Of a stretch of DNA of 64,000 nt, positions 34,804-61,201 are shown piece by piece. The position numbers and the translations under genes were made by a program. How positions within the stretch are numbered: the first letter of the stretch is position 1; each line of letters starts with the position of its first letter. This DNA is from Corallium rubrum (Eukaryota > Cnidaria > Anthozoa > Scleralcyonacea > Coralliidae): positions 5,175,495 through 5,239,494 of the forward strand of contig OZ036014.1 of the NCBI GenBank assembly GCA_964035015.1, in the 5' to 3' direction. The notes beneath the pieces are model-generated. The model was given only the letters and a program-made list of their open reading frames with translations. It searched no databases and was not told the origin of the DNA.

Positions 34804-34811
34804 ATACTTAC

Positions 34812-38056: not shown

Positions 38057-38089
38057 CTTTTATAAAAATAACGGAAGAGGGGAAAACAT

Positions 38090-38435
38090 GTCACATTACA
38101 TCATACCTATCACGTTACATGTCATTACGTCATTTGTTACGTCACACCTGTCACATCCACGTCACACATGTCACATCACGTCATACTTGCCACGTCACAT
38201 CACGTCACACATTACGTCACATTACGTCACACATGCCACATTACGTCACACCTGTCACATCACGTCACACATGTCACATCACATATGTCACATTACGTCA
38301 CACACGTCACATTACGTCACACCTGTCACATCACGTCTCACATAGCACATCACGTCACACTTGTCACGTCACAAAGGTCACATCACATTACGTCATGTCA
38401 CATCACGTCACACAGCACGTCACATTTGTCACGTC
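38090..38435. repeat. (GTCACATTAC)n minisatellite, copy 1
   Basis: Partner of 13530-13900, shorter by a few units. Differs in local variants (ATCACATATG versus GTCACATATG). Confidence 0.85.
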
Positions 38436-38720
38436 AAAAATACAGAATATTATCATTATTATATTGATTATTTTATTATATTTTTCATAAGGTCTTAGTT
38501 CTGTCCCAGGTAATGGGGATTTCTATTTAAGAAGTCTTAACTGTAAGTTCACTTCTAATATTCCTATAGTGTTCCATTACATCGTCATCATAATATGATT
38601 GCGTTGTGTTGTATTGTGTTGTATTGCATTGTATTGTGTTGTATTATATTGTATTGTATCGGGTATATATTATTATTTTATATTTAAAAAGCATATCATA
38701 TATTTCCAATCTAAACCTAC

Positions 38721-39114
38721 CCTGCACTTGGGTCTACTGCCAGTCCTCGTGGATACTCCAAACCAGTATTAACCAAAATCTTTCGATGTTTACCATCGAG
38801 TGTTGCAACCATAATTTTTTCTGATGTGTACGATGTCCAGTAGATAGAACGTCCAACCCAATCGACTGCTACTCCTTCTATCAAGCCAACATCGCTCACA
38901 ATGAGCTCCCTATTCGAGCCATCCATATCCGATCTAGAAATATTCCCATGAACGTACTCACCATAGTAGAGCTTATTGTCGACGCTATCCACATCTAGCG
39001 GTATGACCCTGTGTAGGCCATCAATGACGTCAGTTCGTACATGGGTCGTCAAATCAATTGCACCAACGTCTGTTTGGTTTGAGTACAGTAGATATGGCTT
39101 ATTGGGCAAAGCAT
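38721..39114 (-). CDS. Module copy 1, exon a: YWTD beta-propeller 1, first part
   Basis: Encodes about 131 residues with LDL-receptor class B (YWTD) blades: LYYGEY and IYWTSY mark two blades, with the usual DMDGSNR and LDGKHRK segments between them. It starts in phase 1 and ends in phase 2 (PSAG|), and is continued by the exon at 38056. Compared with copy 2 at 14186-14579, I saw one amino-acid change (LHR versus LHM). Confidence 0.85.
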
Positions 39115-39874
39115 CTGTGGAGAGAAAAAGTGGAAACATTACCATTAAGAGACGTATTTAACCCTTTCACTCACTCGCATTGTTGTTGTGGCACAACTTT
39201 ATATAAAATAACATGTATACTACGCGAGCCCTGATTGGTCAATTGCCGTGTTTGGATCAGAGTATCCAAACATGGAAAATTCCCGCCAAAACGATTTTTT
39301 GAAAATGTCGGACAGTATATCATACTCACTTGTGATTATTTTATAAAAGAAATACCAAATGATTTTTTTCTGTGTTTGGAGACTCTTATCCAAACACTTG
39401 GGAAATTGCTCGACTTTCGGAAAGCTAAAAACACTCGCCTACGGCTCGTGTTTTTTACGCTTTTCTCCAGTCTCTCAATTTCCCGCGTGTTTGGATCAGA
39501 GTATCCAAACACGGAAAAACATTTGGTATTTCTTCAATCTTTTTACTCTGTCTAACGCCAGAGACGATTTAATCGTCATGAAAGCCATACATGAAAAGAT
39601 TAACCGTTTTTGACTTGGAAACGAAAACGGTTTTTTGAGCTAAAAAGATCGGTGCTGACTAGCAATTATTAAGGGCATTTTTTTCTTTATATTCAACCTT
39701 TAATATGAACCAAAGATTAATTATCTTCTTCCTAGGTGGCCATTTTTTCGTCTTTGCTATTTGACCATCTGACCCATGCAGAACATTCGGGCATTGCTAA
39801 AATGTATATTGACTGGTTGAACTGATAATACAGCCGGGTATTCTTATTAGGAGTTTGATGTGAGAAATAGGGAG
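39115..39874. other. Start of intron 1 side, end of the segmental duplication
   Basis: No gene. Contains TTTGGATCAGAGTATCC palindromic repeats (39240-39515) and the right limit of the duplication near 39750. Confidence 0.7.
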
Positions 39875-40565
39875 CAGTGGCGGATACAGGATTTTTGCAA
39901 GGGGGTGACTATAAGGTGCTCAGTTGTTTCTTTCAGAATATTTAACAAGGGCGCGGGGGGGGGGGGGGGGGGAACAGGCAATACTTACTACGTGGGGGCA
40001 GGGTGGCGCCGAAGATGCGACAAACATCCAGGGGGGGGTCCAGGGGCATGGTACCCCGGAAAAATTTTGAATTTTAGAGTCTCTGAAATAGCATTTCCTG
40101 CATTTTGAGGGGGATTGAAAGAGTTTTGAAGGATACAAATTACCAAACAAAATACCCAAATATATTAATGCAGTTGCACCATATGTCGTCATTGTCGTGG
40201 ACTCATGGGGATATGTTTTATACGTTTATGTTCCAAAATTACTATGTATATTCAGATTTCAGATTGAGATTGTATACAATACGTCTATATAATCGTGATT
40301 CTTACTTGTTAAAATTGGGGTTTCAAATTTACAAGATATTAGCGTATCATGATGTCCAATCTTATTTCAAAGGAGAGGCCATAGCTACGGCCTGTATCAA
40401 TAAGCATTGTTATACAATATAATTTATGCACGTTTTACACACGAGTAACTGTTGTGATTTGTATAAACAGCTGCTAGTGTATCGCTGTATAATCCTGTAT
40501 TGGTTGGTCAGGGAAGGGGGGTGACTGGTCACCCAGTCAACCCCCCCCCCCTGTATCCGCCCCTG
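39875..40565. mobile_element. hAT-like non-autonomous element
   Basis: Left end CAGTGGCGGATACAGG and right end CCTGTATCCGCCCCTG are inverted copies and match the ends of the element at 50268-52573. GGGAG flanks both ends (39870-39874, 40566-40570), which is shorter than the usual 8-bp hAT duplication. It includes a G-run (39956-39972) and no coding sequence. Confidence 0.7.
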
Positions 40566-41830: not shown

Positions 41831-41837
41831 CTGCATT

Positions 41838-42438
41838 TCATAAGCTTTCATTTGATGTATATTTTAAGCTTCTGTGTTGTGTGTAACTTTTTAAAATGTC
41901 CAACATGTTCGCACCATATATTGCTCGTCAAGTAATAATAAATGGACTTCTCACAACTGTTGTAGAATTCAGTCGTATATTGTTTTTAAAATACATAACG
42001 CACAACTTTGAAACATATATCAAACAGAAGATACTGTAAAATGCTATTTGCGGTAAAACTTTCAAGTTTCTAGCTTAAGGGGAAGTATTTTAAAAATGGG
42101 AAAACGAACTATTATCTTGTCTGAGTTGTAAACAAAACAAACTTAACAAATACCGTCAGACCAAGATAATAGTACGTTTTCCCATTTTTAAAATACTTCC
42201 CCTTAAGCTAGAAAAAGTTCTACCACAAATAGCATTTTACAGTATCTTCTGTTTGATATATGTTTCAAAGTTGTGCGTTATGTATTTTAAAAACAATATC
42301 CGAAATTCTACAACAGTTGTGAGAAGTCCATTTAATATTACTTGATGAGCAATATATGGTGCGAACATTTTGGACATTTTAAAAAGTTACACACAACACG
42401 GAAGCTCAAAATATACATCAAATGAAAGCTTATGAAAT
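41838..42438. repeat. 600-bp foldback with about 275-bp arms
   Basis: Left arm from 41838 (TAAGCTTTCATTTGATGTAT) and right arm to 42438 are inverted copies with only scattered differences, separated by about 50 bp. No coding potential. Confidence 0.85.
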
Positions 42439-43447
42439 GCCTAACAACATACGTACACGATGTATTTCTACCATATATAGTTTGGACGTTAATAGCCATC
42501 TTCTTCCATAAACAAATATGTTGCTAGCTGTTGCGTGCTTTTTGCTTTTGGTATATGCCGACACTGTTTCGTGTTTGAACATGTTGCCATGGTACGAGTA
42601 TTTTCTCTTTGCCAATAAGAGACCGATTACACATGAGACGAGTTAGCACAGTCAACCTTCGTTTGATTGGTGAAACTAAATTTGAAGACATAATAAACTT
42701 AGTTTCGATGCAAAAGAATTTAAATCACTTCTTGCGGTTGAGGAAATAATTTCGTGGCACAACTTATAGTCGGGGCTCAAACAATTAACCATTTTAATAG
42801 GTGTTTTGTCTTTTGAAGACGTTGTCGCCTTTGGCAGACGTTCGCTTTTAGTCGTTTAAATCCGGTTGGCCTTCTCTCTCTGACTATATAGCTTTCTCTC
42901 TTTGATCGTTGTCCATGTACCGCCATTTTTAAGAGTGTTATATAACTTTTACTCAAACGACTAATTTTACGAGTTGTATGTTATGATCACATTTGGAAAA
43001 TTCTATCGTGTCCATGCATACATGCACTTAAGAATCTAACAGGTTATCAACAAGATGTTGGAACCACAGGTTTGTATAATCCCTTGAAGCAGTTCTATAA
43101 CAATGGTATATTATTTCACGAAGCTGCTTTTTACATCCAATATTTTAAACCAATATTTATTTATTTCATCACAAGACAATATACATATTAAAAATAGATA
43201 TGAAAGAAAATAATAATTTTACAGCGATGGGGAATCTACAGGGAAGCAAAATTTGCTTGTTTGGCGTAGATCTCTTTTATAGAATATAGAACTAGCATAT
43301 ATATATAAAAATTAACAAACTATAGACTTCAGCTTGTTGTCGAAGACTCAACAGGTTTGTTGATCGTTTGAACAAACGTTTAACAAACCTTCGACGAACC
43401 TATACTTGTTTTAAGAAACTTATATAAAGACATATTTTGGGGGGACA
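42439..43447. other. Intron 1 segment left of the CACTA element
   Basis: No gene recognised. 43150-43330 is an inverted relative of 51540-51720 (shared GATGGGGAATCTAC and GATCTC.TTTTATAGAATA stretches). Confidence 0.6.
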
Positions 43448-43450
43448 TAT

Positions 43451-43860
43451 CACAGGACGAAATAAGAAAATTAAGTTACCTTAAATGCCCATTAAAGCTA
43501 ACGTATTGAACCAATTAATGTGCCTTTAAGGTACACTTAAATTTATTAAATACAACTTTAAGTGACATTTAAGTGCTCATTTAAAGCCGATTTATGAACC
43601 ATTTATGGGTACCCTTAAATGCTCATTAATTCTCCGTAATTTTACATTTAGTTAAGCTTTAATTGACTACCTAAATGTAAAGGAAATAGAGATTTAAGTT
43701 CCCTTAAAGCTCATTAAAAACCATTAAATCTTTACAATTACTGATTTATGATACATATAACCCACCTTAAAGGTTCACTAAATCCACTTAAATGTATATT
43801 TAATATATATTTAAGACTTGCGTAAATGTCAAGAAATACAGATATAAGTGAACTTTACTG
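43451..43860. repeat. Left terminal and subterminal repeats of the CACTA element
   Basis: TIR plus at least ten short variants of ACTTAAAT, CATTAAAG and CCTTAAAG in both directions. The likely role, from plant CACTA elements, is binding of an element-encoded protein. Confidence 0.75.
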
Positions 43861-44194
43861 AATGATAAATTCCTAATTATTTGTTTTGGAATACTGTCGT
43901 CATATTATTCTTTTTTTTTTTAAAAAAAAAAAATCTTTTAAATTTCTACTTTACGCGCCGGTGAGATATAGAGATTTCAGTTATTTGGATGCGCAAATGA
44001 AAACTTTCTGTAAATGATCAATACAACAACATTGATTAAAATCACCAGACCAAGTAGTTTTAAATGATATTTATTGAAATTAAAACATTCTACAACACAC
44101 ACTAACATTAATTCCATTGGCATTATATAAAATAAAGGAGAAGGAAATTCGAAAGTTTATGACATTTATGTGAACCCAAGCTGTACTTATAGTA

Positions 44195-44480
44195 GCTTAT
44201 TGCCATGTTACACGAGGCAACTTTCCTTGCAACTTGCAACACAATGGCGTTGTATTGCAAGTTGCAAGAAAGATTTCCTCGTGTGACACCCCATGTTTAC
44301 AACTAGTCTCGCAGCGAAAAATTGCGTTGCCAGTCGCAGAGAAAGTAGAAGCAGCTTCTACTTTTCGCAACGCTACGAGACAAGTTGCAGCGTGTGACAC
44401 CCCCACTGCAACTTGCAATATTTTTTCGACAAAAATTGCGTTGCAAGTTGCAAGGAAAATTGCCTAGTGGGACATGCCTT
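44195..44480. mobile_element. MITE with TTGCAACTTGCAA-rich ends
   Basis: Inverted ends (CGAGGCAACTTTCCTTGCAA at left; its near complement ends at about 44478) are flanked by TTA, which would suit a PIF/Harbinger-type target. Non-coding, nested in the CACTA element. Confidence 0.55.
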
Positions 44481-44671
44481 AGTTATTCAAAGTAATTTTG
44501 AACTACTCTAAACTCACTCGATCGATCGTGCGTTGTACCAGCTGATTATATAAACCTTAGGACACCAAGCTATAGCCGAACAAGTCAACCAACTATAGGT
44601 ATTAATATTTATATTCAAAAGAGAGAAAATAAGTTAAAAATGTGCATATATATATATATATATATAAAAGT

Positions 44672-45013
44672 TTATGCACGAATGAGTGCCCACTCAGGAA
44701 AATCATTTGGTTCTGGACGAGTTGATGGCTGACTAACATTTTCACGGCGTGGGAGAATTCTGCTTTTTGCCCTTTCAGTTAAATGTTTATTATATGCTGA
44801 ATCCAGATCTTTTTTCGCCTTTTTGAAGCGTTCACTTTCCCAGGCAAGGCGCCTTATATTGTATGCCACAACTTTTGAATTTCCGTCACTGTTGGTCTCG
44901 GTGCAACTTTCCTCACTCGACATGGCGTCATCTACTAGAACTTCAGCAACTCTGCCTCGTTTTTTGACACTCCAATTAGCCTTCTCCAATGCAAGAGTTC
45001 TTCTGGTCAGTTT
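44672..45013 (-). CDS. CACTA accessory gene, exon 5 (last)
   Basis: 113 residues and a stop. Begins KLTRRTLALEKANW after a clear AG acceptor, then a basic KKRGRVAEV, an acidic-serine stretch (SSEESCTETNSD) and an Arg-rich C-terminal part ending EWALIRA. With the four upstream exons it makes a protein of about 297 residues. No domain recognised. Confidence 0.75.
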   Translation of the reverse strand, partial: KLTRRTLALEKANWSVKKRGRVAEVLVDDAMSSEESCTETNSDGNSKVVAYNIRRLAWESERFKKAKKDLDSAYNKHLTERAKSRILPRRENVSQPSTRPEPNDFPEWALIRA

Positions 45014-45068
45014 CTGGAAATAATTAAGATATCAAATGGTTAAAAAAGAATCAAAAGAAATGTGAGCA

Positions 45069-45120
<52 letters not shown>

Positions 45121-45301
45121 TGTATCAAAAAAAGGCTGAACCCTTAGAAAACAACCAATTGTAGTAGTTTGAGAGCCCTAAAAGCGCTGCAAAAAAATTA
45201 ACTAAAGATATGTCGTTAATTAACAACAGCTAGCAGCTAACTCTTACCAATAGATAAACAAAAAATACCTACGGGCCTAGTGAATTCCTTCTTTCTATTT
45301 T

Positions 45302-45401
45302 AACCCTTTCACCACCAGACCTTCTCCCTTGACGAGTAAAATCGTATGGCGTTAGCAAGAGTAAAATAGTAATGGGCCACCACGGTGGTGAAAGGGTTAA
45401 T
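45302..45401. mobile_element. Small MITE with TTAACCCTTTCACCACC ends
   Basis: About 100 bp, near-palindromic ends, flanked by TTAA-like sequence, as for Kolobok or piggyBac-type targets. The end motif resembles TTAACCCTTTCA at 14622 and 39160. Confidence 0.55.
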
Positions 45402-45544
45402 TTGTTCCTTTTATTGAAAAATTAAAAGGTGTTCAAGTAATAATTATTTGTGAAAAGGTCCGATAATAATTTCTGATGTGACTTTTTAAGTGAGCATGCT
45501 CAATTACTATATTGAATAAATTATCATCCAAATTCTAAACATAC

Positions 45545-45654
45545 ATCTCTTTTCCGACAGTTCCTTCTACAGTTCTTTTTATGGGCCTGATACTTTCCCT
45601 CAATGGTTTTCTTTTCCTTTTCATACAAAGAGATGAAATATCTTTTCAGCACAG
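45545..45654 (-). CDS. CACTA accessory gene, exon 4
   Basis: 36 residues, phase 1 in and phase 0 out: VLKRYFISLYEKEKKTIEG then a Cys/Arg cluster (KKNCRRNCRKRD). Looks like a DNA-contacting basic segment; inferred only. Confidence 0.7.
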
Positions 45655-46376
45655 CTGTAAAGTAAGAAGAATTTGTCATTAATATTAATCATGGCATTTT
45701 ATAACACTATAAATAAGCAGTTGTAGAAGCATTGTGGTATTATGAAACTGACTTTTATATGTACTGTACATAGCCTCTGTGCACATTTAGAAAACCTGCC
45801 AGAATTTCTGGATGTGCACATGCAGGCTACATTGTATTTTATACGCAGTACTCTTTGCCATTAATTAAATCTTGGTTTTCCTTTCTGGGCAATATAACCT
45901 ATACAGTAGTCCAATACTTTGTTTTAAAACAAAACTTGATTCCCAAATTTCATTGATATTTTGTCACATTAGAAATACTCCTGTTTGAATTAATTGACTA
46001 GCCACTTATATATCAAGGCTATTCACCCATACAAAAATCCAATAGGTCCGAATTCCTATTAGATTTTGATCATCAAATTCATACAGAAAACTATAAGAGC
46101 TCCTATGATACGAATTTGTTCGCATAGGTTAGGAAATTTCTTATTGCACTTCCTAGAAGTATAAGAAATTAATTGCTATTAGATTTTCATATAGAAACTG
46201 TTTATGTTGAACATACAAATCTTGAAATTTCTGTTGGGCAGCTGCAATTACCCACTTACATCCATGGGCAACCATTGGTTTTCCTGTGGCTTTAAATGCA
46301 AAAGGTGACCACTGCCTGGAAAATTTCAAGAGCCAGCTGAGACAGTATAATTATATCACTTTAACACAGTACATAC

Positions 46377-46480
46377 TTTCAATTTGCAACTGAGACCATC
46401 CACCATTCTCCTGCCCTTGATATTGCTGTACTTCTCTAACAACACCCTCAATTATTTCCTTGTTGCTATTAGATAGAACA
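46377..46480 (-). CDS. CACTA accessory gene, exon 3
   Basis: About 34 residues (SNKEIIEGVVREVQQY, WSQLQIE); phases fit exons 2 and 4. Confidence 0.7.
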
Positions 46481-46637
46481 CTATAAAAAAATAAATAGGA
46501 CAGATGATATTTTATTTCAAAATGATCATTAGAAAATGCCCTGACATCTTCTTTCTGATCTTCGCACTGCTAGCTGGTATCCAGGGTATCAAAATGTATA
46601 CCAAGCAAATTATATACAGTAAGTATTATAAGTATTA

Positions 46638-46950
46638 TACCATGACTTGAGGGAAATTACAGTGATTAAATTTTCCCTCAGCTGTTTTACAAATCTTCCC
46701 GAGGCTAAGGCAAAATTTAATCATTAATTTCCCTCAAGTCATGGTATGAGTTTGTAATACCATGATATTCATGCTTAATGTCCCTTGTGAGGAGTAAAAT
46801 TGAATGAACATTTGATGTTCACTCATGCATGTGAATGAGGAGAAAATTAGAAATTTTCCCCAAAGCAGGGAAATTAGAGATTAAATTACCCAGTGAGAAC
46901 AAAAGAAATCAAGTCAATCATGGTATTACCTTATAAATTACCAGGTGAGC
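46638..46950. repeat. Inverted-repeat element in the accessory gene intron
   Basis: ACCATGACTTGAGGGAAATT and its complement (to 46745) form arms around a short spacer, with further related sequence to 46950. Non-coding. Confidence 0.6.
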
Positions 46951-47057
46951 TTCCAATGCCCCTTTATCATTTGACATTTTATCTATCTGAACTCTGTAAG
47001 TGGTCTATACTATAATAATTATTAAGAATTAAATATATTCAAATATACTCGATGTAC

Positions 47058-47128
47058 CTTTCTGTGAGAGTGAAACCAAGGAAATCATCTCGTTGCAACA
47101 AAGTTTTGTAGACTTGTTTTGTAATTCT
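47058..47128 (-). CDS. CACTA accessory gene, exon 2
   Basis: 23 residues (RITKQVYKTLLQRDDFLGF), phase 0 in, phase 2 out, with good splice sites. Confidence 0.7.
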
Positions 47129-47646
47129 CTAGAAAAAATTAATATATAATAACTAGAGGATATTACATGATGTGATGATGGCACAAAGATATGAATTCTA
47201 TCTTCCAATGGTGAAAACAATATTTTTTTAAGTAAGTGTAGCAAATGAGTAAAATATAGAAAATAGCATATTTTCTAGCAAAACTTGGAATTTACCGTAA
47301 AAGCTCTATCTCCCCCCCCCCCCCCCACACACACACACCCCCCGCCATCGGCCCTCACCCTGCCGTATGTAAATGCTCTTTCTCATTCTGACGTATGTGA
47401 TTGAGTTGATGACTTACGAAAGTATTGATTTACGCACGGTGCCCGTTTTAGTAGATCAGTACTTTCGTAACAAGTGTATCCATTCAATCGCATACGTCAG
47501 GTTGAAAAAAAAATCGAAAAAATCGCGCGCGTGTAAACAGAACATGTATTAAATCTGAAGTGGCTTTATAAACTGTGTATTTCATTCATTAATCGAGGAA
47601 CATCAACCGACAAACAAAAATATTTCAAAAATATAAAGTGAATTAC

Positions 47647-47913
47647 CCGACATTGCGTAGGCACTCGCACTTCTTGCACTCTTCGTCTTTTTCTTTTGGT
47701 TTCGGGAGGAGATTGATTTGTCGCTTCACCCAGCTTTTGTTCCAAACTCGCAAATGCCTGACGATTTTTCTCATCTCTCTGCTTCAACTCTTCCCGCAGG
47801 ACACGATTCTCCTCATTCAACTTCTGATTTGTGCGCGCAATTTCCTCAAGGAAAATCAGCACTTGATCTTGACCTCCTTGCCTCTCTGTATCACGGGCAT
47901 TCGTTGTAGCCAT
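47647..47913 (-). CDS. CACTA accessory gene, exon 1: coiled coil with basic end
   Basis: 89 residues from ATG. Residues 15-60 are a heptad-like Leu/Glu/Lys/Gln coiled coil (LIFLEEIARTNQKLNEENR). They are followed by TKRKRRRVQEVRVP, a likely nuclear localisation and DNA-binding segment. Donor GTAATT in phase 0. The five exons together would encode about 297 residues, possibly the counterpart of the small DNA-binding protein (TNPA type) of plant CACTA elements; that role is inference. It is transcribed away from the kinase gene, sharing about 390 bp of upstream sequence. Confidence 0.75.
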
Positions 47914-48304
47914 TTAACGCAGTTGGTGCGAGATCAAAGTAAAAAAATTCGCTGTTCAACAACCTAACACCACGAAGCAAACCTGCAACTGGCTGTTGGA
48001 AAATGAGCGCAATTTTGAATAATTGGCGCGCAATGACTTGATTTTATATATGGTCGGTACATAAGACCCCCTAAATTAGATATCGATATACCTATTAGCC
48101 GGTGGTGATGCCATTGACTCGCTTATTTTTAAAACCTTTTAGAATACCATAGCCTTTCAGAAAATATGTTTGTAACTTATGTAGCTATGCCAGTTACATA
48201 TGGAATCAGATAGGATTCTAAATCTTGCAATTTTATAAATATCCACTGAACAGATTTTATAGTAGAGGGCCAACTTCCCGCTCATCTGTTAATATCCGGT
48301 TAAA
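47914..48304. promoter_or_regulatory. Shared upstream region between accessory gene and kinase gene
   Basis: 391 bp between two divergent start codons, so probably a bidirectional promoter. No clear TATA box was identified. Confidence 0.45.
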
Positions 48305-48806
48305 ATGCACTTTGAACCTTTTGTCATCTGGCTTTGGCGCCAGAAATCATTCGAAATGGAGGGAAAGAACTCGAAGATGTCTCACTGCAATGCTGTCGGG
48401 TTCGCTGTTAGTAAGTATGGTCAAGCTAATGCGCCTTTACCGTGCTTATTAGCAGATCGTGCGAGCGGTTTTTCGCTTGCTGACGATCGGCCATACCAAA
48501 ATCAGCATCTTGAAAGCCAAGCAGTTAACGTCGCCACCTCCACTTCTGGCAAGTCAACTAGAAGAAACATAGAATTGCTACGAAAGAAAAGGAGTCGCAG
48601 AAACAAACAGAAGCGTGAGTCGTTTAGAAATCTAAGTCGAAAGGAAAGAAGAACGAAATATTCTCGAGGAGCAAATCAAGCAATAATCAAAGGACTCGAA
48701 GATAAATTGCACAAGGCAGAACAGGATTATATTCAAGAGAGAAGGCTCTCGAAACTCTGTCGGACCAGTTACCAGAAGGAGAAAGATAGAAAACTCAAAA
48801 TCTTAG
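48305..48806 (+). CDS. Transposon-borne kinase gene, exon 1: basic/coiled-coil N-terminus
   Basis: Open from ATG 48305 (a second ATG at 48356 is equally plausible) to a GTGAGA donor, ending in phase 1. Residues about 80-125 are strongly basic (RKKRSRRNKQKRESFRN, SRKERRTKYSRG), a likely nuclear signal or DNA-binding part. They are followed by a short helical segment (IIKGLEDKLHKAEQDY). No family recognised for this exon on its own. Confidence 0.7.
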
Positions 48807-49810
48807 GTGAGATTTTTGTTGTGCATGTATTTCTGGATTTGTGCCCTTCAGTCTGAATATAAAACTTACATTTTGATTCATGCTTGATAGTAAAGCATTT
48901 ATAAATCAATATTTAAATGATACATGTATGAGTTTATTAGCCTTTAAAGGACTAAAAAATAATGGTTTATCTAGATTGTGATTAGCTTGTTCAGGTCTGT
49001 ACCGCCTGTTGAGGAACTAATTCTTCAGAGCATGCCTCGATGCCTACTGTATTAGCTGCCTTCTGAAGGAACAGTGCTATCCATGCTTTGAACAACTTAA
49101 CTTAAATTTTATTTGGAGAATTGAGCTATCAGATAAATGACTCCCTATTTGGAAGATAAAATATTAATTTGGATGTTCAAAACATGAGTTTATGCAAGGA
49201 TTTATCCACCAGATACTGTAGGAGTTAATTACTTGTGGAATTATGTGTTGGAAATTCGTCAGGAGTTTACTGCAATTTTTAATAATAAGAATTCTTAGGG
49301 TGCAGGCATATTGGTGGTTTTCAATCAATCCCTTGAGAATTGCAGGGCAAAGGCCAAGTGGGCATGTTAATTGGAAGGTACAATAACATTGAATATAATA
49401 TTCTTTTGTATTAACCAACCAACATGCAACCCAGCAATACATATCAATAACATTGATGTAATTGCAATCTCATACTGCAATTACCCAGTTTCCTGAACAA
49501 ATCCAAAATGGGAAATACATGTAGAGGGAATAATTATATGGTTTTTGAATAAAATAGCCCAACACTAGGTTGGGTGGTAAATTATCAAGGAAAGTAGGAT
49601 ATGCTGTAAAATGTAATACATGTACAGTAGTTATGAATATTTATTTTAAAACCAATGGGTTTTTATCCTCAGTACTCAACCTTGCCTTTCTCTTTTTTCA
49701 TGGCTATCCTAGACTGTACAGTACAGTATGTGCTTTTGGTCTTGAAACACTTCTTCCTTAGTATTACTGTACTAATCTTTAAAAAACTCTTGCTTTCAAA
49801 ATTTGTAGAG

Positions 49811-50008
49811 GTCCTAAAATTCTGGAATGTAAAAATTTAAAAGAAGAAAATGCAGGTGATTCAATAACCCTTGGAAAGGGAGCTTTTGGAAATTGTAAGA
49901 AGATGGTGTATAGAGGAATTATTGTCGCTGTAAAAGCATACCATGATTATGTTGATGTAAATTTTGTTCAGTTGGAAGCTGATGCTATCAGTCAGTTTGA
50001 TCACCCAG
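49811..50008 (+). CDS. Transposon-borne kinase gene, exon 2: kinase N-lobe
   Basis: 66 residues, phase 1 at both ends. Glycine-rich loop LGKGAFGNCKK, VAVKAY with the ATP-binding lysine, and a helix-C glutamate in FVQLEADAI, ending QFDHP just as N-lobes end before strand 4. The acceptor is TAGAG|GT; the AG three bases earlier would give a stop. Confidence 0.85.
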
Positions 50009-50267
50009 GTAATAAATATTTATAATACATTTATTTATTTCACAAATGCCCAATGTGTCTATAGTGTCTGATGAATTTTAACAATTATTAGATGAGTTGG
50101 AGCATATCAAGAATTATCAAAACTGAAAAGGATAACACAAACCAAGGTGTTAATATTCTTGATATCAGAGGAAACTCCAATTCTATCTCTATTCACACCT
50201 GCCGGCCATGTGCAGTGTCCAGATATTAAAATAATGCAACATAATATAAGATTATGTTATGTTACAG

Positions 50268-51720
50268 CAGGGGCGGATTTAGGGTACGTCAAACACGTCA
50301 CGCGACGTAGACAAAAATCCCAGACTAATTTATTCATGAATTAATTAGTTGGAAACATTTGAAATTTGAAAATTTCAAGTTTTAAAAATATTCAAATTTT
50401 TAAAAATTTTATATGAATTTATGAATTTTTGAAATATTCAAAAATTTCATTTTTGCACGTATTTAGCGCTGCTATATCGAGAAAAAAATTAATAATTCTC
50501 TGACCCAGTCCTCGGCTGGAGGACACTTAGTCTACTTCATGTAGCCTGAACGAAACTGTTCATACGGTAGGGATAGAGAGGGATGCCATTTACAAATGTG
50601 GATAATTAAACTACGTCAAAATGGCCGACTACGTCAAGATAACGAGCACTGATTGGACAAAGACAATAGAGATACGTCGGAAGTAGTGGGACTACGTCGG
50701 AAGTAAAATATTTTGACGTTCTTGGCTTTTGATTGGCTAGCAAAGGATATTTCGACGTACACGGACTACGGCAAGAGTGACAGACTACGGCATAACCAAG
50801 CTGCCTGAGCCAGCAGTCAATCTTCTGCTTGAGTTCGATTATGGCGTTCTAAGAGACACAGAATGAAAACGATGAATTGTCGAAGACGATCTGTTGCGAT
50901 TTGACAAAGAAACTCCAATCGTGTGGATTCCTCGTGGGTCAAGAGTTTTCGGCGCAGATTGGCAAGCCATTTATACATCGGGTGATCGGGATATCGACGC
51001 AGGCATATATTCCTCAGTATGCTAAAGCTGTTTCTTGAAAGAAAGTTAAGAAACGTTGTATTGCTTTAAGGTGAGTGGATACTATTTTATCTTTAGTTCC
51101 TCAGACTTGTGCAACCATAAAAAGCGTAAATTATTTAAATTAGATGGGATATGTAGAGCTCTCAAGTATATTTATGAATAATTCATCATATTATTAAGAT
51201 AATGAGATGTGTTACAAATATAAGTAATCCATCACTGAATATTATAATTAAATAATCTTAGCTACTGTAGCCGAAAGTTTGGAACAATTTTAGATCAATA
51301 GCAACAGAATGTAAATTTAAAAAAAGGTAAACATTAATTTATTAAAAAAAGGCAGAAATTAGGCTTATATACTATTTCATCATCATTATTATTATATATA
51401 CAATATATGTGAAGTAGCAATTTTCTAGGCTATACCAACAATGTTATATTATTAAGTTACTTAATATGACAGTAAATACCTTCTTGGGCTGATTATGGAA
51501 CATCGATAACTTAGATGCTGTGTAGTGGGCTTGAGGGGGTATATATTGTCCATAGTTTGTTAATTATTAATGTATATACTAGTTCTATTTTCAATAAAAG
51601 GGATCTACACCAAACAAGCAAATTTTGCTTTCTTGTAGATTCCCCATCACTGTAAATTATTATTTTCTTCTTTCATATCTATTTGTACTATCTATATTAT
51701 CTTGTGATGAAATAAAGTAC

Positions 51721-51806
<86 letters not shown>

Positions 51807-52573
51807 TTGGGGGGGGGGGGGAAGAGAAAAAAAATACTTGGTAGTTACTAGTTAGTATGAGTATGACTTGGGATGATGTAGAGAGATGAGCTTCTCTATG
51901 TCCATGAAATGTCCCATGTGGTCTATTGATACTAAAACTTCTTCTAATCAGACAGTGTTTGGCTGGATAGAGGTATTAAGGCGAGTATCTGGTGCCTCAA
52001 AACCAGACAACTCAGAGTAAATAAGGGGTAAATATTAGGTACTTAAGAATTAAGATGACTAGGATGCCCATGAAATGTGGCATACAGTATGGTCTATTCA
52101 TATTGCTTCTTCTAATCAGACAGTGACTGGCTGGATAGAGGTATGTGTTAAGGCGAGTATCTGGTGCCTCAAAACCAGACAGCTTGGCAGCTAAGGGATT
52201 GCAGCAAGTGGCTGCGATTGACCTTACAAAATATTTTGGAGCCTTGGCTGTCCATGTCAAATTCACTGTAGAACAGTGATTCGTAGGCATGCTGATGATG
52301 AGCTCTGATATGGAGCAAAACAGTCCTAAAAAGTTGTCTCCAATAATGATAAAAAAAATGCAAAAACCAAGTCCTTAAGAAATCATAAAACGTTGTATAA
52401 AAAACACAAGTTAAAACTGTAAGATTTTTCTAAATAGTCTTGTCAGAATGCAGGAAATGCCATTTCAGGGAACCAAATTTTAAAAAATTTCCGGGGGGGC
52501 ATGCCCCCGGACCCCCCTAGAAATAATATTTCCGGGTTTGACGTACTCTGAAAAATTCCTGTATCCGCCCCTG
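50268..52573. mobile_element. hAT-like element nested in the kinase intron
   Basis: Inverted ends CAGGGGCGGATTTAGG and CCTGTATCCGCCCCTG are flanked by a perfect 8-bp target duplication TGTTACAG (50260-50267, 52574-52581). 2.3 kb, with no convincing transposase frame. Internal features are a (TA)n run at 51722-51801 followed by poly-G and a tandemly duplicated block (about 51896-52015 and 52068-52190). Confidence 0.9.
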
Positions 52574-52619
52574 TGTTACAGTACAGTAGATGCTAATGTA
52601 CCCACCATACAGGAACCAG

Positions 52620-52710
52620 TTGCAAAAATGCAATGTTAGACCTGACTGGAAACGCACACACAACCCTGTGATACTAGTGCAGTGCTCTGACCACTGAGAA
52701 AATGTATTAA
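52620..52710 (-). repeat. tRNA-SINE-like fragment
   Basis: On the minus strand CTCAGTGGTCAGAGCACTGC resembles a polymerase III A box, and CACAGGGTTGTGTG sits where a B box would be. It is a fragment within the kinase intron. Confidence 0.5.
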
Positions 52711-53279
52711 TACAAAGATTTTGTTGTGGTGAAAAATTTAAATATAGCATGGGAAAACATTTTTACCAAGGTACATTTTTATACTGGATAGTTCTGAAAA
52801 GAACTGTTCAAAAAATTCATTTTTAACCTGATGTTGTCATAACGTTTCACATAAATATAGACTCAAGTTCTTATTTTAGTTAGCAGATATTGCATCTGAA
52901 GAGTATAGTAAAAAAAGAGCAGTCACAAAATACATAGTGTTTCTTTCTAGAATTAAATGTACGGTACTATGCTCCAGATCTTTTATTCTTCTTCTGCTAA
53001 GTCTCAAACAGTTCTCTTCAGAACTATCTAGGATAAAAATTTACCATGGTTAATATGTTTTCCCATGTTATGTCTTAAAATGTGAAAATTCTTCACTCAA
53101 AATTTTCCTTCACCATACATGTGAACACATACAGTGTAGTTTAATCAAATGAAATGTCAAATGTTACTTACAGTACATGTATACTGTAATAGCCATTTGA
53201 TCTGTCACCCTCCAACTTTTGTGGGATTGATTAATTGCAACCAATCATTAGATTTACTTACACAAAATAATTCTTATAG

Positions 53280-53851
53280 GATTACCATTGTTATTTGGAG
53301 TCTGTCTGAATGAGAAGCCCTACCTGATGGTAACACAATTTCATGGGATTAATGGCAATTGCATGACATTTCAAAATGCTATGCAATCATCTGTGGTTAC
53401 ATCATTGGCCAAGTGGATTAGACTATTCAGAAAAACTGGAGAAGCTTTGCTCTATGTCCATGAAAAAGGTTTTCTTCACAATGACATCAAAGGTGATAAT
53501 ATCTTGCTGTCAGCCCAAGGCTCTGGTTTAAATCCAGTCCTCACTGACTTTGGTAAGTGCCGTACAACAAAAAATCCTAAGAAGTATAACCTAACCCTAG
53601 ATGAGCAATGGAAATATCGAAAATATCACTGTCATATTGCCCCAGAACTTATTAAAGGGACACATAGTCAGTCATTTAAGTCAGATATTTATGCGTATGG
53701 TCTCCTTCTATCTCAGACGTGTAAGTTAATTGCACAGTGTAAGCAATCTAGAATTCTTAACGACATACATATAGCTTGCATGCGCAGGAAAATTGAGGAC
53801 AGGCCAACAATGCATGAAATTGTACCCAAATTAAAATTTCACTCAGTCTAA
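53280..53851 (+). CDS. Transposon-borne kinase gene, exon 3: kinase core and C-lobe
   Basis: 190 codons including stop. LPLLFGVCL (strand 4) and a hydrophobic hinge (YLMVTQF), then the catalytic loop HNDIKGDN with Asp, Lys and Asn in place. The magnesium-binding DFG, an activation segment ending in APELIKG, SDIYAYGLLL (helix F Asp) and the RPTMHEIVPKL helix-I arginine follow. All canonical catalytic residues are present (HRD is HND). Exons total 1,272 nt and 423 residues. Nearest type appears to be the tyrosine-kinase-like/Ser-Thr group; exact family uncertain. A possible AATAAA lies at 54324. Confidence 0.88.
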
Positions 53852-54719
53852 GTTAACTCCCAATTTATTGATTAATCGATTTTTCTCCATTCCATTCCCT
53901 TTTTGGCAATCGATAATTTTGAATACATCACATTATCCACAACAACAGTGCACAGCGACATACAGTACTGCTCAGAAATAACCTAACAAAAACCGAGGTC
54001 AAACCTAGGTTTAACCTCAGCTTAATCGTAATAATAATAACTCTGTTCAGTGTCAGTTAAACTGTCTCTAAATCACTATGAATCAAAATATGGACTGTTT
54101 TCTGTATTACTAGATAATTTTATTGTGCTTTACTAAAGTTTATTAGCATTTCTGTCATTGTTTAACTTAACCTCAACCACACTGTTAGGTTATTTCTGAG
54201 CAGTACTGTACCAAAACAAAATGTAGACATTTTATATACAGTGTACTGTATATAATTTATTCCCTATTTTACATAATATTCTATAAATATGTTAATTTTT
54301 TTAGTTTTCATTCTTATTGTGTAAATAAATTTCAATGGGAAAAATTAGTAAAATGGACAGTTAATCGATTATATCTATTTGAACCGATGGTTGCACCTCT
54401 GAGTTTACTCTCTACTACAGTTCAATTTTTTTACTTGTCAAAGGAAGAGCCCTTGGTCATGCTAGACATTAATGGGAGAATTAGTTTTAATATAATACAC
54501 ACCATACAGTACAATATACTGTACCAGTAAAGTAACTGAAATGTTACCTGACCTACTGTAATATAAATATGTACAATTGGATTTTTGGTCAATATTGCAT
54601 GTAGATGTACTTTAAAGTGAAAGGCAAAGTAGATTACAGCTACAGAACTGTATATGTTTTGAGGATTCATGTACCGGTACATTTTTGGCAGTTTCAAGTA
54701 TGTACTTACTTGTTACCAG

Positions 54720-55045
54720 CATATAATTTTAAAAAGCCCCATATTGAAAGAGACATGAGTTATTTCAAATTTTTTATTAAAACTAACGTTTCGTTGCTAA
54801 TCCTGCAACATCTTCAGAGTGAATAATTATTTACAAGGTTATCTCGACTTATATGCTAATATATAAGATAACCTTGTAAATAATTATTCACTCTGAAGAT
54901 GTTGCAGGATTAGCAACGAAATGTTAGTTTTAATAAAAAATTTGAAATAACTCATGTCTCTTTCAATATGGGGCTTTTTAAAATTATATGCTGGGCTTTA
55001 ATATTCCTGACAAGATTACGCTTTCCGCCTGGTTCGTCTATTGCT
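54720..55045. mobile_element. Inverted-repeat element with 12-bp target duplication
   Basis: ACTTGTTACCAG occurs at 54708-54719 and 55046-55057. The body has arms to 54850 and 54862-54993 around a short loop, plus a 50-bp unpaired tail. Each arm contains CTGAAGA, a 5-bp stem GTTGC/GCAAC and GAAA, resembling a hammerhead core. A Penelope-like origin is possible. Confidence 0.6.
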
Positions 55046-55455
55046 ACTTGTTACCAGTCTCCAAAATGAAAGTAATGAAATCTATACAATGGCAAAGCTT
55101 ATACAAGTTTGTGTCACACTTTGTCAGCAAACCTTGCTTGATGTGACAAATTGTCCTCTTTCTCTTCTACCAAAGCGAGGTTTGATGTAAAAAAGAATGT
55201 GATGAACAGTAAACTTGCATAGTGCCATACAAGTTCTAAACTTGTATGTAAGTTTTAAACTAGTTTCAGCTTGCTGACAATGACAAAAGTATGTAGTCTT
55301 CACACAGTATAGTAATATAATCTTGACACAGTATTGTATATTCAGCAAAGTATAGAGCTGTTACAGAGCATTTACTACAGTGCTGTACATACTGTACAGT
55401 GTAGCATGTTTGTCATTCTCATTTTTTGAGAAGATACATGTAGGAGAACAAATTG

Positions 55456-58156
55456 TCATAAGAAAGTTCTTCTAATGATAGGAGATACAGCTACACCATT
55501 ACTGCCATTAAATTTTGATAGTTTTGCACTTGCATATTTGGAGTGAATTCTCTGTACAGGAATAAATGATGAAGGGCCCCCTTCTTGACAATCAGATAAC
55601 CATACCTGTACAGGACTGCCAATTATTGTACTATCTTCGTCTGGTTTGTACCATTTTACACAGGCAAAGGTGTGAGAAACATATTCTCCATCTAAGACTA
55701 GCACATGTGTAAAATAATAGTTGACTGTTCCTGGTGACAGGAAAAATGATGTCTTATTGACAACCCCACAATTTGCTGGCCACGAGGCAAGAATTTTTGC
55801 AGATCGTATTCCTCGAGGTTCAATTTTTGAACCATACATTGTTGTTGCAATAGTTACTGACCCATACTTGTGGATTAACATGCTCATATCATTCTCTGAT
55901 ATTGAAGCTGCAGGATAGAGCATCTTGTAAACTTCAAAAGAAGTTTGGCATCATCTGAATCCAAAGAGCTTAATTTGTAATTGGATGGAAGGAACACAGC
56001 TGATTGATTTTTCCACACAGCCCCAATAGGCATGGGTGATGCTATACTGAGGTTATGAACTGCCCAACGATCAGCCCAATTTGAATTGTGGATCCAATTT
56101 CTACTTCTATCTTCTGCAACATCAGTACACAGGTGAAGAAGGTCTTCTTTGAACAGGCTAGGAAATGACTTTTCTTCAAAGAAGTGTGACAACTTAAACT
56201 TTCTCATCAGCTGTAACTCGACTGATCTCTTGTTTGTGGGAATACTTCCTAATATTCCATTGAACCTCTCAAAGCTAAAACACCAAAAGCTTGCTACTGG
56301 TCCATGGTCCAACACAATGTCCTTTAGGTGACAGTGAAGGTGAATGTTAGGAGTAATTACCTCCTTTCCATACAATTCCTCAACTCGTTTGCCAAACTTG
56401 GTAAACAATCCATCTGCAATGTCCATATCTGCTCGTGATATGACTGGTTGGCAAATGTACCTGCATGCAAGTACAAATGTCTGCCAGCACTTGAAATGAT
56501 CATCTTGTATAATATTCTTTAAACAATACAATGAATAAGTCAGGGTCCAGTTTTTCCACTGTTCAGCAGTGTAACAACCAGAATTTGATGATATTTTGGC
56601 AGGGAGTCTGCCAATGTCACTTGGGACTTCCATTGTACCAATACGCTGCTCGATATTCTGTACATCTTTCTTCGACAGGATACTATTATTCCACAAGTGA
56701 AACATCATTTTGGCTGTGCCAAGAAATAAATTATGCATAGGATCAACTGTGAAGAAGCGGATAGCATCAAAATATGGAAGATCAAGTAGAATACTATAGT
56801 GTGTTATACCATTGTCCCTGCAAAATTTAACTTGTTTTGACTGTGTTTTTATCTTGTCTACTTTTTTGGACAATTGTCGATGCCGCTGATTGGTTCTGGG
56901 CACCCAATTTTCTTTGTCAAAACCAGAGTAGTCCCTTTTGACTCCAAAACCTCCAGGAAACGCCTTCAGACAATGCAAGCAACCGTGAATTGCCGAATGA
57001 CTTTTAAATCCACCCAACTTTCTAATTGCAGGAACATCTGCTGAAACTGACATCACAGCTGCCCTAAATGTTATGGGAAACCGACATAGGGTAGATTCCA
57101 ACTTCATGCCTTTCCACAAACACTGCAACTCTTCCACAGCTGGTTTAAGAAATTCATTCAAGTTTTTAGGTTCTTTATTCATTGACGGTACAATGCCAAT
57201 GACAATGACGTTCTCCCATTTGAACCTTTCAGCCCTTGGCAGATTCAATAAAACCAGATAGAATACTCCAACTGAATAATCTTTTCTTCGGTTCAAAGGC
57301 TGGAAGAAGTCAAAGTTTAGCATAAAACCATAATTCCGGGGTGCTTTCAAAAAATCCGTTCCATTAACTGTCAGGAATTCTTTCCAAATTTTTCCATCAT
57401 AAAAGTCTGCCATTTCATCATTGTTCATTGACCTGTTTCTCCAGTGTTCACATTTTTCAGCAAAACCTTCTTTTTTAAGAAGTCTTTCCAAGGCATTAAT
57501 TATGCTGTTGTAACAATAATATTTAATGGGATAGAAACAACTCTTTCCATTCTTCAGCTGCACTTTATAGACAAGGGCTTCACCACATGTTACTTTTTTC
57601 CTCGTGAGTAATGGAATCCAGAACATAATTTTCCAACTTGTTTATTATTCACAATTGTCAGACACTCATTATACTTATACAGTTTACAACACTTTGGACA
57701 GACAACATACTTATCAAAGTCATCCCTGTCAAAGTGAAAAAACTGCCTAAGCATAAAAAGTGTTCCAGGAAAGACTGTTATAAGCTGGGTGAGTGTGTCA
57801 TTTGGAATTGCCACCCCCAATACTTTCAACCAAGCACCCAAAAAACGTAGGAGCCATGCCATTCCATTGTCACTAATATGGCATGAGAGTTGCCACATTA
57901 AAAGAAAATATACAAGCCAAAATACCAATGAATGTACCATACCCTTTTGTTGTTTTCTTTGATGATCAGGAAGCGGTGAAGGTTCTCCATTCAAATCTCG
58001 TTGAAGATCACTTGGGAGAACATTATCCCAAACCTCTTCACTATCCTCATCATCGGTCGATGAGTCTGTCACATGACTTTCACATTCTGAACAGTCAGAG
58101 TCTTGTTCATTTTCAGTGCAACCAGTACCAGGGTTGTTGTCATGGTCAGGCAAATC
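55456..58156 (-). pseudogene. CACTA transposase, exon 3 (Tnp2-like), with two frame breaks
   Basis: About 900 codons in three frames. The first segment (58156 to about 57620) has an acidic start, a hydrophobic region and a CPKC zinc motif. The middle segment (about 57626-55884) has the Tnp2 core: GVFYLVLLNLPR, SADVPAIRKLGGFKSH, HGCLHCLKAFPGG, then a DUF4218-like part (HLHCHLKDI, GPVASFWCFSFERFNG). The last segment (about 55923-55456) has the C-terminal HTFACVKWY and SFIPVQRI. Each switch needs one missing base, so the copy is either inactive or has sequence errors. It would cut and paste the element by recognising its ends. Confidence 0.85.
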
Positions 58157-58748
58157 CTAATTGCAAACAATGTTAAAATAAGTTGTAGTCTACACAAAAC
58201 AGGAAAAAAGTACAGTGTATTTTTTCTCTATGTACTGTACCAACTACTCAGTGTACTAAATGTTCAACCTATTCTACATCAATACAAACAATTACATGTA
58301 CATGTAAATCCAATCTAGTGTAGAATAGAGACTATAATTATTATAATATTATACTCTAATTATCTCCAGGTAATTTGCAGTTTCCTGAATTGCTCTCTGA
58401 GTCATATGCAATAATTCGCAACATGTTCTCAATTTATTCTAAAATTTTGCAATGGCTGGATACATGTGAATTTCATGATGCATGTGAAATTGTGGCATGT
58501 GACTTTTTGTGTCACAAAATCATGGACATCAGTACTGATTGAATCAGAAAAAGATGAAATAAGGGCTTTAATGCTGACTGAATAGCAAATATTTAAGCGA
58601 TATGGCAATGCAATCCATAGGTGGTGAATACGATCACAAAGTAAGTTATAATATATAATATAGTATTTTTTAAAACTAATCTTGACTGCAAATATTTCCA
58701 TTCTGGTTGTGCAATATTAATGCTGCAATAAATCTATACAGTACTCAC

Positions 58749-58813
58749 CAAGTCTGAGTCTGGCATCCTGTCTGAATGAGAATGGGCATCTTCATTTACT
58801 GCGTTGTTGGAAT
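58749..58813 (-). CDS. CACTA transposase, exon 2
   Basis: 22 residues (DSNNAVNEDAHSHSDRMPD), acidic and linker-like. Phase 1 in and phase 0 out, GTGAGT donor. Fits exons 1 and 3. Confidence 0.65.
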
Positions 58814-58997
58814 CTATTAGAACGAAAAAGGTTAAATGTTAAATTAATGTTATAATGTACAGTACACATACAAAGTTGTGGCAACTTCATTGTACTGTTG
58901 CAATTACACTGTTAGTACAATTCCAATTTCAATGTACTGTATTGTACAGGTAAGGAGGTACAGTGTATTTCTATATTGGTTCTTATAATAATTTATG

Positions 58998-59033
<36 letters not shown>

Positions 59034-60304
59034 TATTCAGTAATTATAATGACTAGTTTGCCACTTGAAGAAAATATGAATTTTGAGACTATGCAGAGAA
59101 TTTAGGATGGACAATTTTTTGTGTTTGATTGATTTTTCTATAAATTGACCTTCACACTTCACAATGTATAAATTTGCTCATTACGAGAGACTAATTCCTT
59201 TGTAGCCATGGCACATTAGGCATTGTTTACCACGAAGTAAAAAAAACAAAAAACGAACAAAACTCTCCAGTGAATCTGGTCAGAAAATTACTTCTTTTGT
59301 GATATACAACAGCCATTTGAAGTATTATTTTTACCTAGCAAAATAAAACGTACACTGTATGTAATTGTTGTATGTAATTGCCAATTTATTAAAAGCATAT
59401 TTTGCCAACTGGAAAATTACTTTTTACAAATTTTTGACCAAGAAAATAATAAGAAAATTCCTTATACACAAAAAAATTGGCATTATTTCTATTCATTATA
59501 CTCTGGAAAAGAATAGGTGCTCGACAAATCAAATGCCTTGTTATGACAAATCTGTTTTATAAAATAGAATGAAATATGCTAAAACTTTGGGTATTTGCAT
59601 CTTACATCATTATTATTTGCGTCTTACATTATTGATATCATGTTGGATGACTTAAAAGGTTTCTCTGCATTTACAATTAAAATTCCAACATGGCAAAAAT
59701 ATTATTATTTCTTGAATCTCTGGGGATTGGTTGCACCGATAGAAATATAGAGAAAAAGAATCGAAAAATTATAAAATAGAGCTTCCAACAACCCTTGACA
59801 CATGTATGCCCCCCTGCAATTGACCCCCCCCCCCCCGATTAAGGGCAAACACAATAGAAGGCACAGTTTTCGGATGCTGCTGAAATAAGCGTCTAATGAG
59901 AACTTTCAAAGTCAAGTGTAAAACCCTCTTTACTTTGCCCATACCCGCTACTCCGAGCAACGATGTATTAAAATTTATTTGATTTCGTTGTTCGGAGTGG
60001 CATCTACAGTGTGTCCTTTAAAGTAAGCATTTCAACGACCAAAGTTTGCGTAAACCAAATATTTTTAGTTTGCGTATTAATAATTTCTAAAACTATGCCT
60101 CTTGTTCTGCGCCTTGTATGGATGAGTAATGAGTTTTCCAGCGTCTTTATATTTTGTGGGGTCTTACTCTTATTTCGAAATATCCCATAAACGATTTTTA
60201 CGAACGATGTCAATAGGCTGAATGAACATCGATCGGTTGCGGTTTTTATCAAAAAAATTGGTCATACGTCTAAACGTAGGCTAGCACAAAATGTTCCATC
60301 TTAC
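58814..60304. other. Transposase intron 1
   Basis: No gene. (AT)n at 59000-59030, a poly-C stretch at 59826-59838 and general AT-rich sequence. Confidence 0.6.
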
Positions 60305-60479
60305 CTGAACTTGTAACACTTTCACTATCCAATTCTTCACTATCCGATTCTTCCAAGACAAGCTGGGTATGCTGTCCTAGCAACTCACGTTGTCTCTTCC
60401 TTTCGTGTCTCTCTAACGTTGATCTTGAAACTAGTTGATCACAATGGCCACACATGTGAAGATCTTGTAATCCATCCAT
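60305..60479 (-). CDS. CACTA transposase, exon 1: zinc-finger-like N-terminus
   Basis: 58 codons from ATG at 60479: MDGLQDLHMCGHCDQLVSRS, then a helix with HERKRQREL. CX2C followed by His resembles the N-terminal zinc motif of animal EnSpm transposases. It continues with an acidic Ser/Glu stretch and ends in phase 1 at GTAAGA. Confidence 0.7.
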
Positions 60480-60839
60480 ATTGTAGTAGTATTTTCCCAA
60501 ATTCTATTCAAACCAACCTTATAGTTATATACGCAAATAGTCGCAACCACACAGATCGAAGCAGAGATCAAATCAGGTGTATTTTACTCACATTTCAAGG
60601 AATAAGATTGACAGGAAATTGTGGTTTGTTGTTGCTAGGTTATGAGTAAACAAAGATCAACAAATAGTTTAAACGTCCAGTTTTGTTGACTCAGTTCTCC
60701 ATCGTAAGTTAAAATTACTTCTATAGACAATTTGACTCATAAAGCAGAAAAATAAGTCAACAAAGCCATTCTCTCTAGCGCGGCATCAATTAATTAACAA
60801 CGGGATATTAAGTTATTCTGGATCTATTGTCAAGCCAGC

Positions 60840-61198
60840 TGTCAACATTTAAGTGAACTTACTAAACTCTTGAAAGTGTATTTAAAGGTACGCTGAGCTT
60901 TAATGGTAATTAAAGGTGCAACTAAAGCCATAGTAAAGGATTTCTCTAACTTTACTGAGATTTAAGTGTAACTTAATTACATTTAAAGTTCCACGTCAAC
61001 TTTAATGACACTTTATGATATATATTAAAGGTCCTTAAAGTCTTTGGTCCTTATATCTTAATTAAATGTAACTTAAAATGACATTTTAACGTTTAATGGC
61101 TTTAAGGTAAACTTAAATACTCCTTAAAGTTAATGGATTAACTTTAAGGAGATTTAAGTGCCCATTAAAGGTAATTAAATCTCAAATTTCGTCCTGTG
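60840..61198. repeat. Right terminal and subterminal repeats of the CACTA element
   Basis: Many copies of TTTAAGTG, CTTTAATG and TTTAAAG-type motifs, mirror-like to 43451-43860, ending in the 13-bp TIR. Confidence 0.75.
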
Positions 61199-61201
61199 TA
61201 T

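Follow-up and report, generated by a model that had tools for sequence, protein, structure and literature searches.

Introduction

Plant CACTA (En/Spm) elements have CAC-type ends, a 3-bp target-site duplication, a Tnp2 transposase and a second small gene, ORF2. They are moved by the transposase, and in certain families the ORF2 product assists their excision and transposition (PMC4158355). In this report we describe an element of this type in Corallium rubrum, found in a stretch of 64,000 nucleotides of contig OZ036014.1 (assembly GCA_964035015.1, positions 5,175,495 to 5,239,494), which is hereafter called the window and whose own numbering is used throughout. Unlike the plant elements, it has, in addition to the transposase gene and a second gene that we call the helper gene, a third gene that encodes a protein kinase and is convergent with the transposase gene. 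As the named relatives of its proteins are animal, plant elements serve as a more remote comparison.

The nearest precedent for the kinase, by analogy, appears to be found in fungi. The IS3EU elements of rust fungi are DNA transposons with a kinase gene opposite in orientation to the transposase (PMC12730594), but they have a transposase of another superfamily, their kinase is an alpha-kinase whereas that of the window matches PF00069, and their hosts are fungi and not animals; the passages on IS3EU assign that alpha-kinase no role. With its Tnp2 transposase and PF00069 kinase, the window element falls outside this class. Animal DNA transposons with an enzyme gene in addition to that of the transposase are known as well, KolobokP among them (PMC9587614), but the extra enzyme of KolobokP is a nuclease and the superfamily differs. 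In the case of Mos1, the transposase is controlled by phosphorylation and can be turned off by the cAMP-dependent kinase of the host (PMC3902898), whereas the kinase of the window is carried by the element, and its putative effect may be of either sign. Our literature search, which covered the listed titles and abstract openings of openly available papers, found no CACTA/EnSpm-borne kinase. The passages of a study of Hydra (PMC12220107) contained nothing relevant, and in those on Rhizophagus irregularis expanded signalling genes, kinases included, are reported to neighbour Mutator-like elements, and EnSpm elements to be under-represented next to most subgroups (PMC8647823).

Our reading of the locus, to which we give a probability of roughly 0.6, is that the kinase has long belonged to one animal EnSpm sublineage as a component and is a non-RD Ser/Thr kinase with a predicted nuclear role and target. 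Control of cut-and-paste transposition by phosphorylation is known from host kinases; if the reading is true, an element lineage with its own kinase would be a simple, testable system for the self-regulation of transposition or for the evasion of host control. Kinase genes in coral and sea-anemone annotations that have no clear host counterpart would then also be explained, as members of the mobilome instead of the host kinome.

Structure of the element

The element occupies 43451–61198 of the window (17,748 bp, or about 15.4 kb once a later hAT-like insert is discounted), and was assigned to CACTA/EnSpm on the basis of its exact inverted ends, the TAT duplication and the TTAAG-rich ends (Table 1). 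The 13-bp sequence CACAGGACGAAAT forms perfect inverted ends; a scan of the window for it gave one further site, with 2 mismatches, when 1.08 chance sites were expected at 2 or fewer mismatches. The trinucleotide TAT on both flanks constitutes the 3-bp target-site duplication. The ends begin with CAC and not with CACTA itself, and CAC...GTG ends are likewise found in other EnSpm elements (PMC12730594). In the first 450 bp (43451–43900) there are 13 copies of the pentanucleotide TTAAG/CTTAA and in the last 399 bp (60800–61198) there are 12, whereas interior 450-bp windows (44000–60700) average 0.85 copies and do not exceed 7; when either end was shuffled 2000 times with a first-order Markov model, no shuffle attained the observed count. 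The main body of the transposase matches Pfam Transposase_21 (tnp2; PF02992) at 2.8e-14. CAC ends, a 3-bp duplication, a Tnp2-type DDE transposase with CxxC and H..H motifs and subterminal repeats in both orientations, which characterize CACTA/EnSpm, are thus all present, and the delimitation of one 17.7-kb element in the first-pass annotation, which had been made from the sequence alone, stands. Judged from its sequence, this is a three-gene animal CACTA/EnSpm transposon composed of transposase, helper and kinase genes, of which the first two lie on the minus strand and the kinase gene on the plus strand.

The kinase gene

The kinase gene had been described as a three-exon gene with all the named catalytic motifs and no frame break, and we could reproduce this description in full. 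The three exons join in frame and without stops to give 406 aa, or 423 aa when counted from an in-frame upstream ATG at 48305; the start at 48356 matches that of the relative P0004. The acceptor of exon 2 was chosen because the frame then agrees with the relatives, the AG 2 bases upstream breaking it. The open reading frame (ORF) of exon 3 alone matches Pfam Pkinase (PF00069) at 1.9e-18, and the protein holds the G-loop, the VAxK Lys, the helix-C Glu, the HxD Asp, the catalytic Asn, DFG, APE, the helix-F Asp and the helix-I Arg. Its catalytic loop, HNDIKGDN, has HND instead of HRD; lacking the Arg that defines RD kinases, the protein is of non-RD type, still inside the protein kinase superfamily. 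Non-RD kinases are often independent of activation-loop phosphorylation, and a Lys in the catalytic loop is a sign of Ser/Thr specificity; the Lys of HNDIKGDN suggests that the window kinase is Ser/Thr-specific. Over its first 150 residues the protein is strongly basic (pI 10.4, K+R 24%), and a crude heptad count (4 of 8 core positions) does not support a coiled coil there.

These features lead to the following proposal. The kinase would be made by the element itself, would enter the nucleus by means of its basic N terminus, on account of which we regard it as probably nuclear, and would need no activation-loop switch. It would phosphorylate the transposase or helper protein of the element, or host factors that restrain or repair transposition, and the element would in this way set its own activity, free of dependence on host kinases. 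A possible variant, which we hold only tentatively, is that the kinase is a standing gene of the element but acts on the host (silencing, DNA-damage response or cell cycle) and not on transposition proteins, in the manner of TET/JBP. In fungi, DNA transposons carry TET/JBP genes that probably help them to evade silencing by methylation, and those IS3EU elements that have TET/JBP bear an alpha-kinase gene as well (PMC12730594); the basic N terminus, which suggests a nuclear protein, suits this variant too. Sequence cannot separate it from the proposal above, which itself admits host targets.

The kinase family and the question of its origin

Of 318 candidate proteins, 74 were relatives of the kinase, and those with a species name come from the octocoral Paramuricea clavata (three), Actinia tenebrosa (one) and Exaiptasia diaphana (one); taken by themselves, they point to an anthozoan or other cnidarian as host. 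HND is present in 71 of the 74, HRD, HQD and HSD being found once each, and the catalytic Asp of HxD is present in 73. When only relatives with a letter at the respective position are counted, the G-loop Gly is conserved in 45/46, the Lys in 50/54, the Glu in 53/56, the Asn in 72/73, the DFG Asp in 70/71 and the APE Glu in 67/67. The region encoded by exon 1, with a conserved stretch around QANAPLPCLLADRASGFSLADDR, is common to P0002, P0004, P0010 and P0017, among which are sea-anemone and octocoral proteins; P0001 is without its first part. In six of the 74 (P0005, P0007, P0011, P0012, P0014 and P0015) homology begins exactly at GLPLLFG, which is the start of exon 3, with unrelated residues before it. 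This pattern is expected of genomic ORFs that contain the same intron 2, which the six relatives therefore probably have in common with the window gene.

The nearest kinases of solved structure were BTK and ABL in a single-sequence search (phmmer E 1e-12), and tyrosine kinases, BTK and B-raf when a profile was used. Since this likeness is only remote, the HND kinases, as judged against solved kinases, appear to form a family of their own, and the window kinase does not look like a recent copy of a familiar kinase.

The first-pass annotation had left it open whether the kinase is captured host sequence or a standing component of the element. Pack-CACTA elements are non-autonomous capture elements that have no transposase gene of their own and contain host gene fragments; the present element, with a transposase gene, though a broken one, and a complete kinase gene inside, is outside this class. 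A recent, one-off capture of a host kinase gene as a passenger, by a Pack-type event, is nonetheless conceivable, because plant CACTA elements do capture host gene fragments (PMC8978399, a paper in which the word "kinase" occurs 0 times) and because the kinase gene retains introns, as captured genes may. We regard such a capture as improbable in view of three observations: the gene is complete and its N-terminal region is common to relatives; the kinases of solved structure are only remotely similar even at the best phmmer E value; and the best relatives of the kinase and of the transposase come from the same species on contigs of equal size, as described below. The shared N-terminal region, these equal-sized contigs and the like placement in trees together favour the other half of that alternative, namely a standing component, restricted to a sublineage.

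Apparent linkage with the transposase in other genomes

The transposase search yielded at least 1370 relatives above threshold among 8000 scored, of which 120 were listed. P0001, the kinase with the highest score, and P0075, the transposase with the highest score, are both P. clavata proteins, and their contigs have the same length of 23,220 bp; from the equal size we read them as apparently lying on the same contig. A weaker pair consists of the kinase P0025 and the transposase P0098, both from JGI and each on a contig of 4,371 bp. In a rough resampling in which species was ignored, chance gave 0.33 size matches on average, with p=0.28 for at least one match and p=0.04 for at least two; a coincidence is less likely for the P. 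clavata pair, because only 3 x 3 same-species pairs are possible in the listed rows. The named relatives are found in corals and sea anemones, and one of them seems to have a related transposase as its neighbour, which gives the kinase the appearance of a functional component of the element, as opposed to a host gene that strayed into it.

A kinase tree, the construction of which had been proposed as a check, was built from the window kinase and the 69 of 74 relatives with at least 160 aa. The window kinase groups with P0006 (support 100/96) and then with seven sequences including P0001 and P0003 (98/94), while P0025 is in a different group of the same set of 22. In the transposase trees, one with 60 and the other with 28 of the 120 listed sequences, the window transposase groups with P0075, P0076, P0081, P0109 and P0111 (100), and P0098 is in the neighbouring group. 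The two kinds of tree thus agree on the placement of three pairs (the window, P0001/P0075 and P0025/P0098), which is a modest test.

Another explanation is that the kinase is one member of a multigene family of the host, and that either coincidence or nested insertion put it between the ends and, in P. clavata, on one contig with a transposase. Some relatives bear names in the style of host genes, for example gdt4 and STY13-like, equality of contig size is indirect evidence of linkage, and the kinase gene is on the strand opposite to the other two genes. However, the kinase gene is flanked by two element-type genes within exact ends and a 3-bp duplication, and of the 3 x 3 kinase–transposase pairs that the listed P. 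clavata sequences allow, one has an identical contig size. In addition, on reading the sequence, with no systematic search, we noticed no ends or duplication that would mark the kinase as an insert, the intronic hAT-like insert being the only one seen. We therefore think it very improbable that a host gene came to lie here in this way.

Several points weigh against a long-standing, working kinase of the element, and we collect them here. Among the 120 listed of at least 1370 transposases, 72 of the 74 kinases, including two of the three from P. clavata, have no partner on a contig of equal size, and the P. clavata helper relative P0196 is on a contig of another size, 9,514 bp. The linkage case accordingly depends mainly on the single P. 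clavata pair, for which the equal size is indirect evidence. Transposase relatives (at least 1370 of 8000) far outnumber kinase relatives (74 of 318), so that many related elements may lack the kinase. The set of 22 that includes the window kinase, P0001 and P0025 has a support of 90/91, which is below the usual mark. Finally, the transposase of the window is broken, and this copy of the element is therefore probably non-autonomous at present.

Selection on the kinase

When neutral substitution of the kinase coding sequence was simulated down to 75% or 56% protein identity, 0 of 300 copies remained free of stops in each case, which indicates that the kinase family has been held by purifying selection while its members diverged. 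This concerns the family, and the intact frame of the window copy is by itself no demonstration of selection. That the kinase frame is intact beside a broken transposase had been offered as a hint of selection on this copy, but we give it little weight and do not retain it as a sign of selection: at the break rate of the transposase (2 in 2.7 kb), zero breaks in the kinase are expected with p=0.40, and zero in kinase and helper together with p=0.21.

The transposase and helper genes

P0075 has 71% identity to the main ORF of the transposase over 95% of the ORF. This ORF contains the motifs NFDFFQP, DVPAIRKL, GCLHC, VDPMHNLFLG, NIHLHCHLKD and FSFERFNG, among which the catalytic D, D and E presumably fall. 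The N-terminal exon gave no Pfam match above the cut-off. P0076 (916 aa) is a single open frame, whereas the same stretch in the window is split over three frames; the junctions between these, near 57596 and 55934, leave no space for an intron, and the window copy therefore has two frame shifts, which may be real or assembly errors.

The helper gene has GT-AG at all four junctions and an unbroken frame. Its product is basic (pI 9.8) and has a leucine-zipper-like stretch near the start, with 6 of 8 core positions in a crude heptad count. Of 1483 candidates, two were relatives, P0195 and, from P. clavata, P0196, and neither gave a Pfam match above the cut-off. P0195 has 47% identity over 95% of the query and is an unbroken frame of 288 aa on a 1,762-bp contig; such continuity would be expected of a spliced transcript or of a copy without introns. 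A six-exon model was discarded after comparison with P0195 had excluded the stretch at about 46316–46258 as an exon; with the remaining five exons the frame stays open across every junction. By gene position alone, the helper protein may be a counterpart of ORF2 of plant CACTA elements.

Searches in viruses and prokaryotes

Scans of viral contigs with a kinase profile (built from 35 of the 74 relatives) and with a transposase profile (built from 15 of the 120 listed) confirmed no relative, and phage records searched with the exon-3 ORF of the kinase gave none. In contigs of prokaryote genomes the kinase profile found 97 loci, of which 80 were kept, and one of them, L001, was best by far (E 7e-41). 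This 3.7-kb contig, filed under Lentisphaeria, has an HND kinase with a basic N terminus at 1345–2370 (+) and a divergent frame with C2H2 fingers at 660–956 (-), a layout resembling that of helper and kinase in the window. It is probably a eukaryotic contaminant, and none of the 120 listed transposases matched it. The other 79 loci (L002–L080, bacterial and archaeal) were found through patterns that include HND and have only 23–38% identity to the kinase profile, and they were not accepted as evidence for the element. Five transposases tried against the 80 loci gave no match.

The distant kinase groups have up to 100 member sequences per cluster. It is a speculative and rather doubtful extension that the entire HND family, the 74 relatives and the distant groups alike, is transposon-borne; it would then be a large and old animal family with which EnSpm elements adjust their own transposition or counteract the control exerted by the host.

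Other features of the element and the window

The coordinates of the features are collected in Table 1. The insert in intron 2 of the kinase gene, which we class as hAT-like from its ends and the length of its duplication, is a later, separate insertion that leaves the kinase exons untouched, and no transposase was found in its 2,306 bp. A block of this insert (51548–51716) recurs with 88% identity at 43160–43327, just outside the left end of the element, and another (52443–52517) recurs with 82% identity at 40033–40108. A search of Rfam at gathering scores gave no match.

Table 1. Features of the CACTA/EnSpm element in window coordinates
Feature	Position	Strand	Detail or basis
Left target-site duplication, TAT	43448..43450		flanking sequence
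Left terminal inverted repeat, CACAGGACGAAAT	43451..43463	+	exact match
Left subterminal zone, TTAAG/CTTAA-rich	43464..43900		repeat count
Helper gene, 297 aa	44672..47913	-	exons 47913-47647, 47128-47058, 46480-46377, 45654-45545, 45013-44672
Kinase exon 1: basic N-terminal region, K/R run, motif common to P0002/P0004/P0010/P0017	48356..48806	+	451 bp
Kinase exon 2: G-loop, VAVK lysine, helix-C Glu	49811..50008	+	198 bp
hAT-like insert in kinase intron 2, 2,306 bp	50268..52573		ends CAGGGGCGGAT...ATCCGCCCCTG; 8-bp duplication TGTTACAG at 50260-50267 and 52574-52581
Kinase exon 3 and stop: HNDIKGDN, DFG, APE, helix-F Asp, helix-I Arg	53280..53851	+	572 bp
Fold-back repeat, arms 129 nt, between kinase and transposase 3' ends	54716..54994
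Tnp2-type transposase body, two frame shifts near 57596 and 55934	55459..58156	-	Pfam, relatives
Transposase N-terminal exon, CxxC...H...H pattern	60321..60479	-	51% identity to P0075 residues 1-53
Right subterminal zone, TTAAG/CTTAA-rich	60800..61185		repeat count
Right terminal inverted repeat	61186..61198	-	exact match
Right target-site duplication, TAT	61199..61201		flanking sequence

Upstream of the element, at 41833–42440, there is a palindromic stretch with 91% identity to its own reverse complement. Elsewhere in the window, 8476–14805 and 33033–39340 form a direct duplication of about 6.3 kb that is 98.5% identical and contains exons of LDL-receptor class B repeats. The pol of a Gypsy-type retroelement, with two overlapping long frames (protease, reverse transcriptase, RNase H and integrase), is at 17524–21761, and a PNMA-like gag frame is found on the same strand at 31111–31956, about 9 kb off and beyond minisatellite tracts. 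These long minisatellite-like tracts (22112–25639 and 28059–31005) are open in several frames on both strands.

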